Assembly (NCBI RefSeq): GCF_015776785.2
Contig: NZ_LFMD02000007.1
Location: forward strand, 1,187,895 to 1,251,894
DNA length: 64,000 nucleotides
Direction: 5' to 3'
From: Kitasatospora sp. SUK 42
GTDB taxonomy: Bacteria > Actinomycetota > Actinomycetes > Streptomycetales > Streptomycetaceae
In this document: piece by piece, positions 209 through 7,777 of the stretch
Numbering within the stretch: the stretch's first letter is position 1
Layout of the letters: each line of letters starts with the position of its first letter
Translations under genes and position numbers: made by a program
The notes under the pieces: model-generated
What the model was told of the DNA's origin: nothing
Database searches by the model: none
The model's input: the letters and a program-made list of their open reading frames with translations, nothing else

Positions 209-991
209 TCAGACCAGCCGCGCGACAGGCAGCCGGCCAGTCGGCAGCGGCCCCGCCCGAACGGTCGACACCAGCTCTGCCAGGTACCGGGAGCGCCCCA
301 TCGGCGCCGCCCCGAGGCTGCGCACGTGCGGACCGTCCCACTGCGCGTCGAGCAGCCGCCCGCCCGCCGCGCCGAACCGTGCCCCGAGGTCGGCGACGGC
401 GACCCTGGCGGCGTCGGACCGCCGGTGGAACATCGAGTCCAGACTCAGCACCGGCCCGACGGCCACCCCGAACACCCCGCCGACCAGCTCATCCCCCTCC
501 CACACCTCGACGCTGTGCGCCGCGCCGCGCGCGTTCAGCTCCACCAGCGCAGAGGCCAACTCCTCGGTCAGCCAGACCGGTTGACGGCCTGCGACGCAGG
601 CTGCGAGCACCTCGCCGAAGGCCCGGTCCGCCGTCGTCCACCACTGCGCCCCGTTGCGCAGCCGCCGGGCGAGGCGGCTCGGCAGCCGTACGCCGTCGGG
701 CCGCAGCACCGGCCTGGGATCCGGCGACCACCACGCCAGTGCGTAGGGGTCGCTCACGCCCGACAGCAGCGCCACCCCGTCCACTTCCCCGTACCTGGCC
801 TCGTTGTAGGCGCTCGCGTACACGTCCGCCGCCGGTAGCGGGAACAGGCCGTGCCCGTACGCCGCCAGCAGCTCGCCCGCGTCCAGCGACCCGCCGAACG
901 CCACCGGCCCGTCCGCCGGGGCCCGTTGGAGATCGAGGCCGTCGAAGGCGCTCGCCCTGCCAACCCCGTTCACCCTGCCAACCCCGTTCAC
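209..991 (-). CDS. Leucyl/phenylalanyl-tRNA-protein transferase homologue in an NRPS operon
   Basis: About 260 aa, close to the length of bacterial Aat (E. coli about 234). It carries the family hallmarks YGHGLFPLP near residues 45-53 and WWSPDPRPVL near 82-91, and a GNAT-like core with GRSRYLAELV near the C-terminus. Aat normally moves Leu or Phe from charged tRNA to the N-terminal Lys/Arg of proteins (N-degron pathway). Here the GTG start at 991 overlaps the stop of the upstream NRPS by four bases (GTGA), so the two are translationally coupled; a second in-frame GTG lies at 973. The context argues for a biosynthetic role: Leu/Phe transfer onto the amino group of the NRPS-bound basic amino acid. 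That role is inferred; the family assignment is strong. Confidence 0.85.
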   Translation of the reverse strand: MNGVGRVNGVGRASAFDGLDLQRAPADGPVAFGGSLDAGELLAAYGHGLFPLPAADVYASAYNEARYGEVDGVALLSGVSDPYALAWWSPDPRPVLRPDGVRLPSRLARRLRNGAQWWTTADRAFGEVLAACVAGRQPVWLTEELASALVELNARGAAHSVEVWEGDELVGGVFGVAVGPVLSLDSMFHRRSDAARVAVADLGARFGAAGGRLLDAQWDGPHVRSLGAAPMGRSRYLAELVSTVRAGPLPTGRLPVARLV

Positions 992-3900
992 CCGGCCGCC
1001 CCCGTCCGCCCGGCCGGTCCCGCTCGCCCGACCGCCCCCAGGAATCCGTCCGCCTCCAGCCGCGCCAGGTAGTGGTCCAGCAGCACGGCGTCCACCTCCG
1101 GCAGCTCGATCCCGCTTCCCTCCAGCGCCGCCTCCGCGTTCGCCCGGTCGAACTGGGGGAACGTCGGCCGGAAGTACAGTTCGCTGATGGACAGTTCGGT
1201 CCCCGGCGCCCGGTCCACGAACAGCGGGACGAACGGCGTGATCGGGTGCGTCGGGTGCCCGGCGGCGAACCGGACCAGTCGCCGCACCCATTCCCCGTAG
1301 GGCAGTTGGGCGATCCGGTGGCCGCGCGACCGGAGCCGGTCGGCGAGGTCCGCGAGGGCTGCCGGGCCCGGCGAGGTGAGGTGGTAGACCTCGCCGTCGG
1401 CAGGTGCGCGGGCCGCGATGTGGACCATCGCGCGGGCCAGCCGGTCGGCCGGGACGAAGTCGAGCGGCAGCTGCACCGCCGGACAGGTGCCGCTGTCGGC
1501 GAAGTAGCGGATCAGCGCGCAGAGTTCGGTGCCGGTGTTCATGACGCCGGCCCCGAGGCCCCCGGTGACGTCGTTGGTGCGCAGCACCGTCACCGGCAGT
1601 CCGTCCGCCGCCGCGTTGTGCAGCAGCTGCTCGGCGACCCACTTGCTCTCGACGTACCCGACGCCGAGCCGGTCCGGGTGCGCGAGCGGCGTCCGTTCGG
1701 TGACCTCCGGAACGCCGGCCGCGCCGAACCCGGCGAGCACGGCGAGGGTGGAGAGGTAGTGCACGGGGACGCCCCGGCTGTACCCGGCGAGCCGGACGAT
1801 CTCCCGGGTGCCGCCGACGTTGGCCGCGCGCAACTGGTGGTACGGGTAGAGGAAGTTGACCCGCCCGCCGAGGTGGTAGACCGCGTCCAGGTGCTCCGCC
1901 AGCCAGGTGAACCGACCGTCGGCCAGCCCGAGGCCCGGCAGGGCGAGGTCTCCGACCAGCGGAACCACCCTCGGCTCCGCCAAGTCGCTCAGCAGATAGC
2001 GCTGTTGGGAGGCCTGCAACCGTTCCAGCGCGCGCCCTTCGTCCGGGGCGCGGACCAGGCAGTGGATCCGGGCCCGGGTGGTGGAGAGCAGGGTGCGCAG
2101 CAGGTGGGAGCCGCAGAAGCCGGTGGCGCCGGTGAGCAGGATCTCGGCGGGATCGACCCGGCAGGGCGCGGGGCTCCAGGACTGCCGGACGGCGTGGGTG
2201 AGTTGAGCTTCGGCGCACCAGTCGACGGCGGCCTCCCCCGGGCCTGTGGCGCCGCCACTGCCGGCACCGCAGCCACGGGCCTCCTGCAGGGCGGCCGTGA
2301 AGGAGTGCAGCACGGGCGAGCGCAGCAGCGCCCGGGTGAGGGTGCGCACATGGCCGACGTCCAGGCCGAACATCATCCGGGCCCGGGCGAGCATCTCCAT
2401 GGCGAGCAGCGAGGTGCCCCTGAGGGTGAAGAAGTCGTCGTCGGGGCCGACGAGTTCGACTCCGAGCAGCTCCGCCCACAGCTGCCCTACGGCCCGCTCC
2501 ACCCCGCTCGCGTCCACCCCGCTCGCGTCCGCCTCGGCAACCACCCGCACCGGCTCGCGCCCTGGCTCCCGCACGGACGCAGGCCCGGGCGCCCGTGGCA
2601 GCGAGCGCCGGTCGATCTTCCCTGCCGGTGTGAGCGGCATCGCCTCCAGCGGCACGAACGCGGTCGGGACGAGGTGCTCGGGCAGCCGCTCCGCGAGGAA
2701 CGCCCGGATCCCCTCGCGCGGGACGCCGACGTCCCTCGTCGTGTAGTAGGCGGTGAGCGCCCGGCCGCCGTCCGGCGAGGTGCCGTCGGCGGCGATCCGG
2801 GCCTGCCGCACGCCGGGGTGGGCGGTCAGGACGGCCTCGATCTCGGCCGGGTCGACCCGGTACCCGCGCACCTTCACCTGCTCGTCGAAGCGCCCGAGGA
2901 TCTCCAGCCGCCCGTCCGCCCGCCAGCGCCCGGCGTCGCCGGTGCGGTACATCCGCGCGCCGGGCAGCGGCGCGTACGGGTCGGGCAGGAAGCGTTCGGC
3001 GGTGAGCCCGGGGCTGCGCCAGTAGCCGCGGGCGAGGCCGGGCCCGCCGAGGTGGATCTCGCCCTTCCCGCCGGGCCGGACCGGGCGCAGCCGTTCGTCC
3101 AGCACGTACACCCGCACACCGGGCAACGGCCGCCCGATCGGTACGGGGGCGGCCGAGGAGCCCAGCACCTCGGGGGTGATCTCGCAGAGCAGCGAGGTCA
3201 CGGCCGCCTCGGTGACCCCGTAGGCGTTGAGCAGCCGTACGCCGGGCAGCCGGTCCAGGCCGGTCCGGCAGTCCTGGCCGTACAGCAAGTCCCCGCCGAC
3301 CACCACCAGCCGCAGGCCTTCCGGCGCGGGCCCGCCGGGCGGCAGCAGGTCGAGCAGGTGGTGCCAGTAGGCGGGCATGAAGTCGGCGACGGCCAGGCCG
3401 AGCCCGGGCAGCCGCCGCACCAGTTCGGTCGGTGCCCAGGTGCCGCTTCCGGTGCCGGGGCCGGGGCCGGAGCCGGAGCCGGTACCAGTGCCGGGCCCGG
3501 GCCCGGAGCCACCGCCCAGCACCACCGTCGCCCCGGAGAGCAGCGCGGCGAAGACCTGTTCCAACGCGGTGTCCGACCCGAGCGCGGCCAGTTGCAGCAC
3601 CCGCTCGCCGGGCGCGAGCCCGTACGCGTGCGCGACCCGGTCGAGGGTGAACAGCAGCGAACGGTGGGTGACCGGCACGCCCTTGGGCCGCCCGGTGGTG
3701 CCGGAGGTGTAGATCAGGTAGGCCAGGTCGTCGGCGGAGGCGTCGGAGGCGTCGGAGGCGTCGTCCGGCGGCACCGCCCCGACGGCGTCCACTCCCACCC
3801 GTTCCACCCCCGCGAACCCCCTCCCCGCGATCGCCACCCGCGCCCCGCAGTCCGCCACCAGCCCGCCGAGCCGCCGCTCCGGGTGCGCCGGGTCCAGCGG

Positions 3901-4266
3901 CAGGAACGCCCCGCCCGCCTTGAGCACCCCCAGCCACGCCACCACCAGCTCCACCCCGCGCTCCAGGCACACCGGCACCACCTGCTCCGGCCCCACCCCC
4001 CGCGCCCGCAGCCCGGCCGCCAGCCCGTCGCTGCGCCGGTCCAGCTCGCGGTAGCTCAGCGTGACGTCCTCCCCCACCACCGCGACGGCCTCCGGGGCGC
4101 GCGCCGCCCGCGCACGGAACACGCCGTGCACCGTCCGCGCACCACCACCCGCTTCAACCCGACGGTCAAACCGGCGATCAACCCGCCGATCGGCCCGCCG
4201 ATCGACCCGACGAGCAGCAGCATCCACCCGCGCCCGGCACTCCGCCCGCCCCACCGCCCCGTACAC
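988..4266 (-). CDS. Stand-alone NRPS: adenylation - thiolation - thioester reductase (partial MbtH N-terminus)
   Basis: 1,092 aa from a GTG at 4266. Residues ~45-560 are an adenylation domain (YLIYTSGTTGRPKG near 180, YRTGD near 438, PAGKIDR near 547). A thiolation domain follows, with an atypical serine context (LRGTSLLAM instead of LGGHSL, near 617). Residues ~700-1075 are a Rossmann thioester reductase (LLTGATGFCGSHLL near 705, Thr in YLSTLAVL, YVESKW near 870). There is no condensation domain. Aligned by eye to GrsA, the pocket reads D-T-E-D-V-G-A-V-T-K, with acidic residues at 239 and 278, pointing to a basic amino acid (Arg/Lys/Orn). The reductase should release an aldehyde. Residues 2-19 (YGAVGRAECRARVDAAAR) look like the second half of an MbtH domain. 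A Gly-rich insertion sits between A4 and A5. The GTG follows the upstream TGA by three bases, suggesting re-initiation. Confidence 0.85.
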   Translation of the reverse strand: MYGAVGRAECRARVDAAARRVDRRADRRVDRRFDRRVEAGGGARTVHGVFRARAARAPEAVAVVGEDVTLSYRELDRRSDGLAAGLRARGVGPEQVVPVCLERGVELVVAWLGVLKAGGAFLPLDPAHPERRLGGLVADCGARVAIAGRGFAGVERVGVDAVGAVPPDDASDASDASADDLAYLIYTSGTTGRPKGVPVTHRSLLFTLDRVAHAYGLAPGERVLQLAALGSDTALEQVFAALLSGATVVLGGGSGPGPGTGTGSGSGPGPGTGSGTWAPTELVRRLPGLGLAVADFMPAYWHHLLDLLPPGGPAPEGLRLVVVGGDLLYGQDCRTGLDRLPGVRLLNAYGVTEAAVTSLLCEITPEVLGSSAAPVPIGRPLPGVRVYVLDERLRPVRPGGKGEIHLGGPGLARGYWRSPGLTAERFLPDPYAPLPGARMYRTGDAGRWRADGRLEILGRFDEQVKVRGYRVDPAEIEAVLTAHPGVRQARIAADGTSPDGGRALTAYYTTRDVGVPREGIRAFLAERLPEHLVPTAFVPLEAMPLTPAGKIDRRSLPRAPGPASVREPGREPVRVVAEADASGVDASGVERAVGQLWAELLGVELVGPDDDFFTLRGTSLLAMEMLARARMMFGLDVGHVRTLTRALLRSPVLHSFTAALQEARGCGAGSGGATGPGEAAVDWCAEAQLTHAVRQSWSPAPCRVDPAEILLTGATGFCGSHLLRTLLSTTRARIHCLVRAPDEGRALERLQASQQRYLLSDLAEPRVVPLVGDLALPGLGLADGRFTWLAEHLDAVYHLGGRVNFLYPYHQLRAANVGGTREIVRLAGYSRGVPVHYLSTLAVLAGFGAAGVPEVTERTPLAHPDRLGVGYVESKWVAEQLLHNAAADGLPVTVLRTNDVTGGLGAGVMNTGTELCALIRYFADSGTCPAVQLPLDFVPADRLARAMVHIAARAPADGEVYHLTSPGPAALADLADRLRSRGHRIAQLPYGEWVRRLVRFAAGHPTHPITPFVPLFVDRAPGTELSISELYFRPTFPQFDRANAEAALEGSGIELPEVDAVLLDHYLARLEADGFLGAVGRAGPAGRTGAAG

Positions 4267-4269
4267 CCG

Positions 4270-4359
4270 TCACCACCCGCCCGGCACCGTCAAGTCCCCC
4301 GGCCACACCGCATACTGCCCGTTGTCGTTCCGGACCACGGCGTGACGGCCGAAGCTCAC
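4270..4359 (-). pseudogene. First half of an MbtH-like domain, cut from the NRPS by an in-frame TGA
   Basis: From a GTG at 4359, 29 codons read MSFGRHAVVRNDNGQYAVWP and then GDLTVPGGW, ending at TGA 4272-4270. NDNGQYAVWP...VPGGW is the conserved first half of MbtH proteins, which bind and activate adenylation domains. The frame is the same as that of the NRPS: after the TGA come CGG and then GTG-TAC-GGG, giving RVYGAVGRAEC, which matches the second half of MbtH. Counting the TGA as one residue restores normal MbtH spacing between GW and YG. The simplest reading is an MbtH-NRPS fusion with a nonsense mutation or a base-call error. If the stop is real, this is a 29-aa orphan peptide. Confidence 0.7.
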
Positions 4360-4606
4360 ATCCGTTCGTACGCCCCGTGCGCTGTCGGCTGCGTCATCCA
4401 CCGGCTTGACCTCGTGGTGTGGCGGCAGAATGCTGGGAGGTGCGACATTTCCGACTATACGCACCCACGGAACACCGACAACGTCCGTCACGAACCACCG
4501 CCGGACGCCGCTGCGCCGTGGGCCGACCCCCTCCGCCACCCACCCCGCCCTCGCCCGAACTCCCTCGCCCGACCGGCGGGGTGACGTCGCGGAGGAGGTA
4601 GCCCCG
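4360..4606. other. Divergent intergenic region between the NRPS operon and the GGDEF-EAL gene
   Basis: About 250 bp between divergent genes, with no credible coding content apart from the MbtH half described separately. Promoters for both directions should lie here. No confident -35/-10 pair was identified. A strong ribosome site for the plus-strand gene is at its right end. Confidence 0.5.
4591..4598 (+). promoter_or_regulatory. Ribosome binding site deciding a TTG start
   Basis: GGAGGAGG lies 8 bp before TTG 4607-4609 and identifies that rare start codon as the beginning of the GGDEF-EAL protein. The open frame extends about 200 bp further upstream but without a comparable site. Confidence 0.7.
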
Positions 4607-7600
4607 TTGACTCGCCGGCGCCAACGCCTGATGGCCTGTTACCTGCTCTGGATGGTGCTGTTCACCGGCGTCTACTACGCCGACCCCGGGCAGCGGATCA
4701 TCTGGTGGCCGGGCATCGGCCTCGGCGGCGTGGCCGCCATCCTGATCGGCGTCCACCTCAACCGCCCCCGGCACCCGCTGTTCTGGTACCTGCTGGCGCT
4801 CGCCAACCTGACCTTCACCCTGGGCGAGGTGCTCCAGGCCTTCCAGTTGGACATCCTGCACCTGCCCAACCCCTTCCCCTCCGTCGCCGACGGCTTCTAC
4901 CTGGCCGAGTTCGCGCTGTACGCGGCCGGAGTGCTCGGCTTCATCCGCTGGCGAACGGCCCGTCAGGACCGCGCCGGGCTGCTGGACGCGCTGATCCTCA
5001 CCATCGGCCTCGCGCTGCTCGCCTGGATCTACCTGATCCTCCCGTACGCCCGGAACCCGGACCTCGGCTGGTTCCAGAAGGCCGTCTCGATCGCCTACCC
5101 GCTCGGCGACGTGGTCGTGATCGCCCTGCTGCTGCGGCTGTTGACCCCACGCGGCGGCAACTCCCGCTCCCTGCAACTGCTCGCCGTGGGCACCCTCGGC
5201 ATGCTCGTCTCCGACGTGCTGTACGGGCTGATCCAGCTGCACGGCACCTGGCACATCGGCACACCGGTCGAGCTGGGCTGGGCGGCGTTCTACACCGCCT
5301 GGGGTGCGGCCGCGCTGCACCCGTCGATGGTGGAGCTGACCAGGCCCGTGCCCACCCAGCAGCCGGACCTCTCCGCCGGGCGCCTGGCCCTGCTCACCAT
5401 GGCCTCGCTGATCGCGCCCGCCATCCTGATCATCGAGTCACTGGCCGGGGACACCCGCAACGCGGGCGTGATCGGTGCCTTCTCCGCCCTGCTCTACCTG
5501 CTGGTGCTGGCCCGGCTGGCGGTCGTCGTGGTCGCCCGCCGGCAGGCGGTGGCCCGGGAGCGGACGCTGCGCGAGGCGGGCGCCCGGCTGAGCGCGGCCG
5601 TCACGGTGGCCGAGGTCGCGGACGCCGTGCAGTCCGCCGCCTCCGCCCTGATGCCCGCCGAGCCCGGGCACGTCGCCCTGCTGGCGGTCGCCGAGTCGGG
5701 GGTGCTGCACGTGCGGCACGCCGAGCACGGCGCGACGCGGCACCGCCTGGTGCCGGGGCACGGCGACGACGAGGTGCTCGCGCTCGCGGCCCGGCGCGAG
5801 ACCCGGCTGCTGCCCGCCGGCTCCGTCGAGCTGCCCGCGTACCTGGACGGCATGCCCGCCGCCCTGGTCTGCCCGCTCACCCTGGCCGAGCGCCCCTCCG
5901 GCGACCCGCTGATCGGCGCCCTCGTCGTCACCGGCACCGAGCAGGAGCTGACCAGCCTGTGGGGCTCGCTGGAGATCCTCGCCGCCCAGGCGGCGCTGGC
6001 CGTCGAGCGGGTGGTGCTGAGCCAGGAGGTCGTCCGCCGCGACAGCGAGCTGTACTTCCGCACGCTGGTGCAGAACGCCAGTGACGTCATCCTGATCCTC
6101 GACGCGGACGACAGCGTGCGCTACGCCTCCTCCTCGGCCGAGCGCGTGCTGGGCCATCCCGGCCTGGACGGCACCCTGTTCACCGACCTCGTCCCGCCCG
6201 AGGACAGCCGGGAGGTCGGCCAGGCGCTGGCCCGGATGCGCGGGTCCACCGAACCGGGCCAGGGCGAGTGGCCCCGGAGCGAGCGGCCCCGGAGCGAGCG
6301 GCCCCGCGAGCACTGGCGGCTGCTGCGGCAGGACCGCACCCCGATCGAGGCCGAGGTCCGCTACACCGACCTGCGCGCCGATCCGACGGTCGGCGGCCTG
6401 GTGCTCACCCTGCGCGATGTGACCGAGCAGCGCCGGATGGAGCGCGAGCTCACCCACCGGGCCTTCCACGACTCGCTGACCGGGCTGGCCAACCGGGTGC
6501 TGTTCCAGGACCGGGTGGGCCACGCACTCTCGCGCGGCGAGCGCAGCGGCTCGGTGACCGGGGTGCTCTTCATCGACCTGGACGACTTCAAGGTGGTCAA
6601 CGACACCCAGGGGCACGCGGTCGGCGACGAACTGCTGGTGGCGGTCTCGCTGCGGATCTCCACGGCGCTGCGCAGCTCGGACACGGCGGCCCGGCTGGGC
6701 GGGGACGAGTTCGCGGTGCTGGTGGAGGACGCGCTGCGCCCCGCCGACGTGGACACCATCGCGGGCACGGTGCTGTCGGTGTTCGCCGAGCCGTTCAAGC
6801 TCAGCGCGGGCGCGGTGCGGGTGAACGCGAGCATCGGCGTGGCCACCACCGAGGACAGTGTGGACGCGGCCGAACTGCTCACCCACGCCGACCTGGCGCT
6901 CTACGCGGCGAAGGCGTCCGGCCGCCGCCAGTGGTGCCACTACCGGCCGGCGTTGCAGGCGGGGCTGGTGGAGCGGCACGAGCTGAACGAGAACCTGGAT
7001 TCGGCGATCGCAGAATCGGCCTTCCAGCTGTACTACCAGCCGATCGTCGACCTGCGCACGGGCGAGCTGGTCGCCTTCGAGGCGCTGCTGCGCTGGCCGC
7101 ACGACCGGCGCGGCATGGTGCTGCCCGACGAGTTCATCGCCCTCGCCGAGGAGAGCGGCCAGATCGTCCCGCTCGGCGCCTGGATCCTGGAACGCGCCGT
7201 CCAGGAGGCCGCCCTCTGGCACGCCGCCAGCTCCGCCACCCGGGAGGCCGCCGGCCGCCCCCCGCTACGGGTCAACGTCAACGTCTCCGCCCGGCAGTTC
7301 CGCGACGCCGGCTTCGTGGACGTCGTCCGCCACGCCCTCACCGCCTCCGGCATCGACCCGCACACCCTCGTCCTGGAGCTCACCGAGTCCGTCCTGATGC
7401 GCCGCGACGACCGTCTGCGCACCGACATGGCCACCCTCGGCGAACTCGGCGTCGGCCTCGCCATCGACGACTTCGGCACCGGCTACTCCTCGCTCTCCTA
7501 CCTGCGCGAGTTCCCGATCTCCATCCTCAAGATCGACAAGTCCTTCATCGACGGCCTCGGCCTCTCCCCCCAGCAGTACGCCCTCGTCGAGGGCATCGCC

Positions 7601-7777
7601 CGGATCGCCGACACCCTCGGCGTCCAGGTCATCGCCGAGGGCATCGAGCACCCCGAACAGCGCGACCTCCTCGCCGCCATGGGCTGCCCCCTCGGCCAGG
7701 GCTACCTCTTCGCACACCCGATGGACGGCCCCCAGGCCCGCGTCCTCGTGCGCGGCACGTCGTACGAACCGGCCTGA
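4607..7777 (+). CDS. Membrane-anchored GAF/PAS-GGDEF-EAL protein (c-di-GMP synthase/phosphodiesterase)
   Basis: 1,056 aa from TTG 4607. Residues ~8-290 contain several hydrophobic helices (a multi-pass membrane sensor). A GAF-like segment follows at ~305-460, then a PAS domain at ~480-600. The GGDEF domain has an intact RLGGDEFAVL motif near 698. The EAL domain has intact AFEALLRW near 824, LELTES, DDFGTGYSSLSYL, ILKIDKSFI and AEGIE. Both catalytic halves look active, so the protein could make or degrade cyclic di-GMP, the second messenger that controls development in Streptomyces through BldD. A short 15-bp repeat near 6273-6305 encodes PRSERPRSERPRE in the PAS-linker region. It seems to be transcribed alone. 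Confidence 0.93.
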   Translation: MTRRRQRLMACYLLWMVLFTGVYYADPGQRIIWWPGIGLGGVAAILIGVHLNRPRHPLFWYLLALANLTFTLGEVLQAFQLDILHLPNPFPSVADGFYLAEFALYAAGVLGFIRWRTARQDRAGLLDALILTIGLALLAWIYLILPYARNPDLGWFQKAVSIAYPLGDVVVIALLLRLLTPRGGNSRSLQLLAVGTLGMLVSDVLYGLIQLHGTWHIGTPVELGWAAFYTAWGAAALHPSMVELTRPVPTQQPDLSAGRLALLTMASLIAPAILIIESLAGDTRNAGVIGAFSALLYLLVLARLAVVVVARRQAVARERTLREAGARLSAAVTVAEVADAVQSAASALMPAEPGHVALLAVAESGVLHVRHAEHGATRHRLVPGHGDDEVLALAARRETRLLPAGSVELPAYLDGMPAALVCPLTLAERPSGDPLIGALVVTGTEQELTSLWGSLEILAAQAALAVERVVLSQEVVRRDSELYFRTLVQNASDVILILDADDSVRYASSSAERVLGHPGLDGTLFTDLVPPEDSREVGQALARMRGSTEPGQGEWPRSERPRSERPREHWRLLRQDRTPIEAEVRYTDLRADPTVGGLVLTLRDVTEQRRMERELTHRAFHDSLTGLANRVLFQDRVGHALSRGERSGSVTGVLFIDLDDFKVVNDTQGHAVGDELLVAVSLRISTALRSSDTAARLGGDEFAVLVEDALRPADVDTIAGTVLSVFAEPFKLSAGAVRVNASIGVATTEDSVDAAELLTHADLALYAAKASGRRQWCHYRPALQAGLVERHELNENLDSAIAESAFQLYYQPIVDLRTGELVAFEALLRWPHDRRGMVLPDEFIALAEESGQIVPLGAWILERAVQEAALWHAASSATREAAGRPPLRVNVNVSARQFRDAGFVDVVRHALTASGIDPHTLVLELTESVLMRRDDRLRTDMATLGELGVGLAIDDFGTGYSSLSYLREFPISILKIDKSFIDGLGLSPQQYALVEGIARIADTLGVQVIAEGIEHPEQRDLLAAMGCPLGQGYLFAHPMDGPQARVLVRGTSYEPA

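Follow-up and report, generated by a model that had tools for sequence, protein, structure and literature searches.

We analysed a stretch of 64,000 nucleotides from the soil bacterium Kitasatospora sp. SUK 42 (contig NZ_LFMD02000007.1), the whole of which we call the window, and found near its first letter three adjacent genes: one for a nonribosomal peptide synthetase (NRPS)-like protein, one for a protein of the leucyl/phenylalanyl (L/F)-transferase (Aat) family, and one for a membrane protein with PAS, GGDEF and EAL domains, hereafter c2. Profile scans of the minus-strand open reading frame (ORF) 4266-988 matched PF00501, PF00550, PF07993 and TIGR01746, identifying adenylation (A), carrier (T, or peptidyl carrier protein, PCP) and reductase (R) domains, and found no condensation (C) or thioesterase (TE) domain. 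This architecture fits that of the livipeptin system of Streptomyces lividans 66 (Sli0883-0885; MIBiG BGC0001168), in which a C-minus A-PCP-R NRPS is followed by a relative of the L/F-transferase (PMC10548850). The NRPS and transferase genes share a GTGA overlap at 991-988. The features of the locus are as follows.

209..991, minus strand: L/F-transferase (Aat) family protein of the NRPS-associated type; GTG start at 991; PF03588, 141.8 bits.
988..4266, minus strand: NRPS-like protein A-T-R; the first GTG past a TGA, at 4266, is the candidate start.
2599..4119, minus strand: adenylation domain, residues ~50-556; PF00501/PF13193/TIGR01733; pocket D T E D V V A V T K.
2356..2493, minus strand: carrier (T) domain; PF00550; LRGTSL, against LGGxSL in most relatives.
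1039..2142, minus strand: thioester reductase (R) domain; TIGR01746, 268.4 bits; motifs TGATGFCG and GYVESKW retained.
4270..4359, minus strand: MbtH remnant; PF03621 positions 10-35 of 53; ends at the in-frame TGA 4272-4270.
4377..4466, no strand assigned: conserved intergenic block, possible shared control region; alignment of 22 loci.
4607..7777 (approx.), plus strand: membrane PAS-GGDEF-EAL protein (c2); start at 4607 (TTG) or 4631 (ATG); PF00990 148.6, PF00563 241, PF00989 29.3.

The core of this arrangement, a condensation-free A-T-R synthetase overlapping an Aat-family gene, had been proposed in an earlier sequence-only reading, and both the domain matches and the overlap confirmed it. 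As that reading had also supposed, no C domain lies nearby: of the 41 C-domain matches genome-wide, none falls inside the window, and the closest one on this contig is ~55 kb off on the side searched. The extent it had given the cluster (209-4359) held for the NRPS and transferase genes, which are real, and missed the adjacent GGDEF-EAL gene (~4607-7777).

Relatives were compared as a set of window-type loci, defined by an MbtH match and an NRPS match upstream of the transferase and chosen without regard to c2. After removal of nine loci that repeat genomes of the G set (L031-L038, L155), 61 of the 77 non-duplicate loci were of this type, and four others (L039, L040, L042, L151) were of livipeptin type. 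In 58 of the 59 NRPS aligned, among them those of L039, L040 and L042 (livipeptin type), the A-domain pocket reads DTED-xx-A-V/I-T-K/R, with pocket positions set by motif and given in GrsA numbering; the sole exception, L127, is out of frame. Reductase motifs and the carrier serine are retained in the window NRPS. Together with three conserved transferase residues (D186, Q188 and W111 in E. coli numbering), this homology supports the livipeptin-like interpretation first made from the letters.

The transferase is the only PF03588 (Aat-family) match in the genome, and its TIGR00667 'aat' score of 130.5 bits falls below the equivalog cut-off of 143.55, outside the housekeeping class by that measure. 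A structure search, as the sequence-only reading had proposed, returned E. coli LF-transferase (2z3k, 2dps, 2cxa) as the closest solved structure by both sequence and fold (TM-score ~0.7-0.8), and the AlphaFold model of the window protein has a predicted local distance difference test (pLDDT) score of 92. Five positions, W49, W111, E156, D186 and Q188, are ones that we take to be functional in E. coli Aat. That reading had named a lack of tRNA- or peptide-binding residues as grounds for rejecting it, and this was not seen in full: most of the positions, namely the W111, D186 and Q188 equivalents, are kept, though W49 is changed to L and E156 to D. This pattern is general among the 61 transferases compared (60 from window-type loci, without L132, which the ORF step missed, and one from L163, where the contig stops short of the NRPS), with the W111 equivalent in all 61, D186 and Q188 in 60, M, L, F or I in place of W49 in all 61, and D in place of E156 in 60, the gap in each case being the truncated L177. 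Housekeeping Aat sequences carry W and E at the W49 and E156 equivalents (6/6), and the four livipeptin-type transferases carry F and D. The segment from FPx to WWSPDP is 33-42 residues long in 35 of 37 measurable transferases, as against 8-9 in housekeeping ones; the pattern was found at both ends in these 37 of 61, and failed on the other 24 and on all four livipeptin-type sequences. Six loci have the transferase fused to the NRPS (L109, L115, L127, L133, L136, L164). By its shared residues, the window transferase, adjacent to an NRPS, was placed with the natural-product type.

One element of the sequence-only reading, a single MbtH-A-T-R protein, did not survive. The MbtH frame 4359-4273 matches just positions 10-35 of the 53 of PF03621, and the remainder of the domain, eroded, continues in frame past the TGA at 4272-4270, a codon also reported by a whole-genome MbtH scan and read as CGG in the near relatives L150, L166 and L179. 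An uninterrupted fusion in the window is thereby ruled out. Elsewhere MbtH is joined in frame to the A domain without a stop in 59 of the 61 window-type loci, the exceptions being the window itself and L127, which has a frame difference. The genome holds five other MbtH matches, one of which could perhaps help in trans if such help is needed.

The broken MbtH raises the question of whether the window copy is a decaying relic, an explanation also favoured by the eroded domain end, by a substitution in the carrier motif (G644R, giving LRGTSL where most relatives have LGGxSL), by frame breaks in some relatives (L146, L177, L127), and by a ratio of nonsynonymous to synonymous substitution (dN/dS) of 0.36-0.44 for A-T-R alone, higher than the 0.29 between two relatives. 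Decay is nevertheless hard to reconcile with the rest of the two genes: G644R is the only change among 235 near-invariant NRPS positions and the transferase departs at 1 of 64, at or under the relatives' medians of 3 and 1, and comparison of A-T-R and Aat with five relatives gives dN/dS values of 0.31-0.44. We therefore consider a relic very unlikely; the A-T-R and transferase genes look alive because they are otherwise so well conserved. Because of the TGA and G644R, the window copy may still be weakened, which counts against a fully working unit here. Among the relatives, L146 and L177 have A-T-R split by a frame break, through either decay or sequencing error.

Examination of the gene neighbourhood revealed c2 directly next to the NRPS in all 61 window-type loci, divergent from it in 50 and upstream on the same strand (tandem) in 11, with 4-base overlaps in two of the tandem loci (L121, L126). 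Only the NRPS, transferase and c2 genes are common to all 61, the next most frequent gene occurring in 15, while the outer neighbours, as delimited by our own ORF caller, vary across 39 gene clusters beyond c2 and 28 beyond aat. The GGDEF and EAL catalytic motifs are retained in every one of the 61 c2 proteins, and c2 looks able, from its sequence, to make and break cyclic di-GMP (c-di-GMP). The predicted structure of its membrane part has a pLDDT of 51. Between the divergent genes, a block of ~90 bases is strongly conserved across the 22 loci aligned; it contains GTGCG...CGCAC arms, and no Rfam match was found in 3900-5000, a range that covers it.

Co-occurrence follows the same lines. Across 394 Streptomycetaceae genomes, with three c2 candidates scored per genome and presence taken as at least 54% identity, transferase and c2 were found together in 61, transferase only in seven, c2 only in one and neither in 325. 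The seven transferase-only genomes carry other architectures, and in the single c2-only genome (G129) c2 sits on a 3.6-kb contig. The only A-T-R loci without c2 are the four of livipeptin type.

Several points weigh against reading this linkage as a functional tie. The identity threshold was chosen after the list had been seen, with the next match at 51%, only three candidates per genome were scored, and the counts ignore shared ancestry. In a tree of c2, from which row L237 (a wrongly merged ORF) was disregarded, all tandem copies fall in a single clade together with four unlinked ones, and the change of orientation may therefore have occurred just once. Unlinked relatives of c2 do exist, both at 59-60% identity (L228-L231) and as a clade of 14 at 48-55%. 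Alternatively, c2 could be a passive neighbour, inherited with the locus, since a single family tree could account for much of the linkage and the tandem arrangement is one clade. Such an account sits poorly, however, with the retention of just three genes amid outer neighbours that vary, with the two orientations and the 4-base overlaps, and with the keeping of both catalytic motifs throughout; we judge it quite unlikely and favour c2 as a true member of the unit.

Near some copies of c2, namely those of L109, L110, L123 and L133 and the unlinked L228-L231, a glycosyltransferase-like gene (relatives of c51) recurs, mostly accompanied by a small gene (relatives of c13). This neighbourhood is perhaps an exopolysaccharide locus under c-di-GMP control.

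A class-wide search gave a transferase match in 179 of 394 genomes and led to a second pairing of an L/F-transferase with a GGDEF-EAL gene. Eighteen regions were fetched, 14 from the 32 listed genomes of a family labelled f18 and four from other families; no c2 match was found in the latter four. In 13 of the f18 regions (L269-L277, L279, L280, L282, L283) the transferase is immediately preceded, on its own strand, by a GGDEF-EAL gene, which overlaps it in seven of the 13 by our own ORF caller and is 10-350 bases away in the other six; L278 has no such neighbour in the more than 9 kb read upstream. No NRPS match was found in the f18 stretches read, and all 14 f18 transferases are housekeeping-like, retaining the E156 equivalent as well as FPW. 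Of 30 EAL loci fetched for a tree, 27 yielded a stretch that could be used; among the 62 GGDEF-EAL stretches of that tree, the 15 rows linked to Aat in f18, three of which are repeats, group in a clade by themselves (0.999) that is not sister to c2. The f18 pairing would therefore have arisen independently, perhaps in one event, and a common origin of the Aat-linked GGDEF-EAL genes in f18 and Streptomycetaceae was ruled out by this separation.

The f18 loci also bear on whether the window transferase simply modifies proteins as an ordinary N-degron enzyme, with the NRPS working separately. It is the only Aat-family gene of its genome, and f18 offers a precedent, since housekeeping-like Aat genes there follow a GGDEF-EAL gene and no NRPS match was found close by. 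Unlike the f18 enzymes, though, the window transferase has changed W49 and E156 equivalents; its score lies under the aat cut-off, and its relatives are fused to the NRPS in six loci, all of which makes an N-degron role most unlikely and speaks for a transferase that serves the NRPS.

Other clusters also hold divergent L/F-transferases beside an NRPS (L139, L145 and L155, the last identical to L041; L167, L172 and L176; L174; L135). Those scanned contain C domains: L139 has C-A-T with a carbamoyltransferase nearby, L167 has A-T-C-A-T and C-A-T, L174 has C-A-T-TE, and L135 has A-T plus a stand-alone C domain. The Q188 equivalent is E in L139, L145 and L041. An orphan transferase of livipeptin type, 69% identical to that of L039, was seen at L268:8723-9493, near genes for a Vsr endonuclease, a cytosine methylase and an NADH dehydrogenase, with no NRPS match in 19 kb.

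Taken together, these data suggest, with moderate confidence on our part, that the three genes make up a unit of the livipeptin kind, here in its Kitasatospora-type variant, with a tRNA-fed bond and a tie to c-di-GMP. We infer its substrates, its product, the direction of signalling and the function of the c-di-GMP link from homology. The enzyme pair probably joins two amino acids via charged tRNA in place of a C domain. The A domain would activate a basic amino acid, probably arginine, and load it onto the T domain; the transferase, altered near its acceptor site, would then take Leu, Phe or some other hydrophobic residue from aminoacyl-tRNA and attach it to the free amino group of the amino acid loaded on the carrier, a step replacing the C domain, and the R domain would release a dipeptide aldehyde. 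Because no N-acyltransferase is present, the free amine would probably attack the aldehyde, and a cyclic imine or pyrazinone would result. As a true member of the unit, c2 would link it to c-di-GMP, whether it governs production or responds to what is made.

A cyclic imine or (dihydro)pyrazinone seems a likelier product than a protease-inhibiting aldehyde, since free-amine dipeptide aldehydes are expected to cyclise, as in AusA (PMC12153313). More tentatively, and with considerable doubt, the locus might be a self-contained signalling cassette, in which a tRNA-built dipeptide aldehyde or pyrazinone is controlled or sensed by its own c-di-GMP enzyme and so reports aminoacyl-tRNA supply to c-di-GMP. 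Were this true, the f18 pairing of L/F-transferase and GGDEF-EAL gene without an NRPS would be a second case of coupling.

How far the livipeptin model itself applies depends on the N-acyltransferase. Livipeptin protease inhibition needed all three genes, the N-acyltransferase included, and a mix of NRPS and transferase was inactive (PMC10548850, Table 1); RNase suppresses the activity of three-gene mixes (PMC10548850). The RNase figures disagree within that report, Table 1 giving near-complete loss and the Fig. 4 legend ~87% for trypsin and 37% for papain, and the livipeptin structure was never identified (PMC10548850), both of which weaken the analogy on which our reading draws. The four livipeptin-type loci keep a near-fixed order of NRPS, transferase, ~250-residue protein, O-methyltransferase and acyl-CoA dehydrogenase, without c2 and without a detected MbtH. 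The ~250-residue protein stands in the place of the N-acyltransferase and is identified by gene order; Pfam gave nothing on that of L039, the only one scanned. The window locus has no N-acyltransferase and none of the recurrent genes of the 61 loci is acyltransferase-like, so the protease-inhibiting aldehyde suggested by the sequence-only reading finds no support at the window locus, the gene required for it being missing there (PMC10548850).

The locus might still be a plain livipeptin cluster, with an N-acyltransferase encoded elsewhere in the genome acylating the dipeptide aldehyde into a protease inhibitor, as the A-domain pocket common with three livipeptin-type loci and the same NRPS-Aat core order would suggest. 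Set against this are the absence of any recurrent acyltransferase-like gene and the restriction of the common genes to three, the near-fixed downstream genes of the livipeptin-type loci, which go without c2 and detected MbtH, and a genome search with the L039 candidate that found no match, although the one divergent query was run without a positive control, a point against our own reading. We regard a plain livipeptin cluster as unlikely and retain the three-gene unit with c2.

The use of an L/F-transferase in place of a C domain is already published, and the finding as first given is therefore a further member of a known group: the livipeptin clade already includes three Kitasatospora and six Streptacidiphilus entries as well as transferase-NRPS fusions (PMC10548850). 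What would be new, if it holds, is a form common in the sampled Streptomycetaceae that lacks an acyltransferase, bears a fused MbtH domain and was in no case found apart from one GGDEF-EAL protein. Such a form would suggest a product that may act as a signal and not by inhibiting proteases. The main text of PMC10548850 contains none of the terms GGDEF, diguanylate, c-di-GMP and MbtH (0 occurrences each). Searches of the open-access literature returned nothing relevant on a c-di-GMP link to such a transferase/NRPS or to a peptide aldehyde, and nothing on a dipeptide aldehyde or pyrazinone with arginine in Streptomyces or on the combination of transferase, NRPS and aldehyde; the transferase paired with c-di-GMP matched a single qPCR paper. 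The 30 records of plasmid relatives are all below 60% identity, and Streptomyces is not among the organisms named.

Compared with known systems, the window transferase resembles E. coli Aat in fold (TM-score ~0.7-0.8) and in its D186, Q188 and W111 equivalents, and differs in the replaced W49 and E156 equivalents and the longer segment after FPx. To our knowledge, AusA includes no tRNA-using enzyme. The R domain of AusA releases a free-amine dipeptide aldehyde that cyclises, the release proposed here for the window type, whereas in AusA two A domains are accompanied by a C domain (PMC12153313). With livipeptin the locus shares the core order NRPS-Aat and, as compared through three livipeptin-type loci, the A-domain pocket; it differs in having no N-acyltransferase, O-methyltransferase or acyl-CoA dehydrogenase beside its genes, and in its type's N-terminal MbtH on the NRPS, broken in the window, and GGDEF-EAL partner. 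CdgF of S. venezuelae is a 10TM-PAS-PAC-GGDEF-EAL protein (TM, transmembrane), for which the accessible parts of PMC6205966 give no biosynthetic neighbour, and the signals of membrane c-di-GMP enzymes of its kind are described there as unknown. In architecture, c2 is like CdgF in its membrane N-terminus and its PAS, GGDEF and EAL domains with key motifs. For one membrane c-di-GMP enzyme of the CdgF kind, the NRPS-transferase pair would be a candidate partner in biosynthesis.

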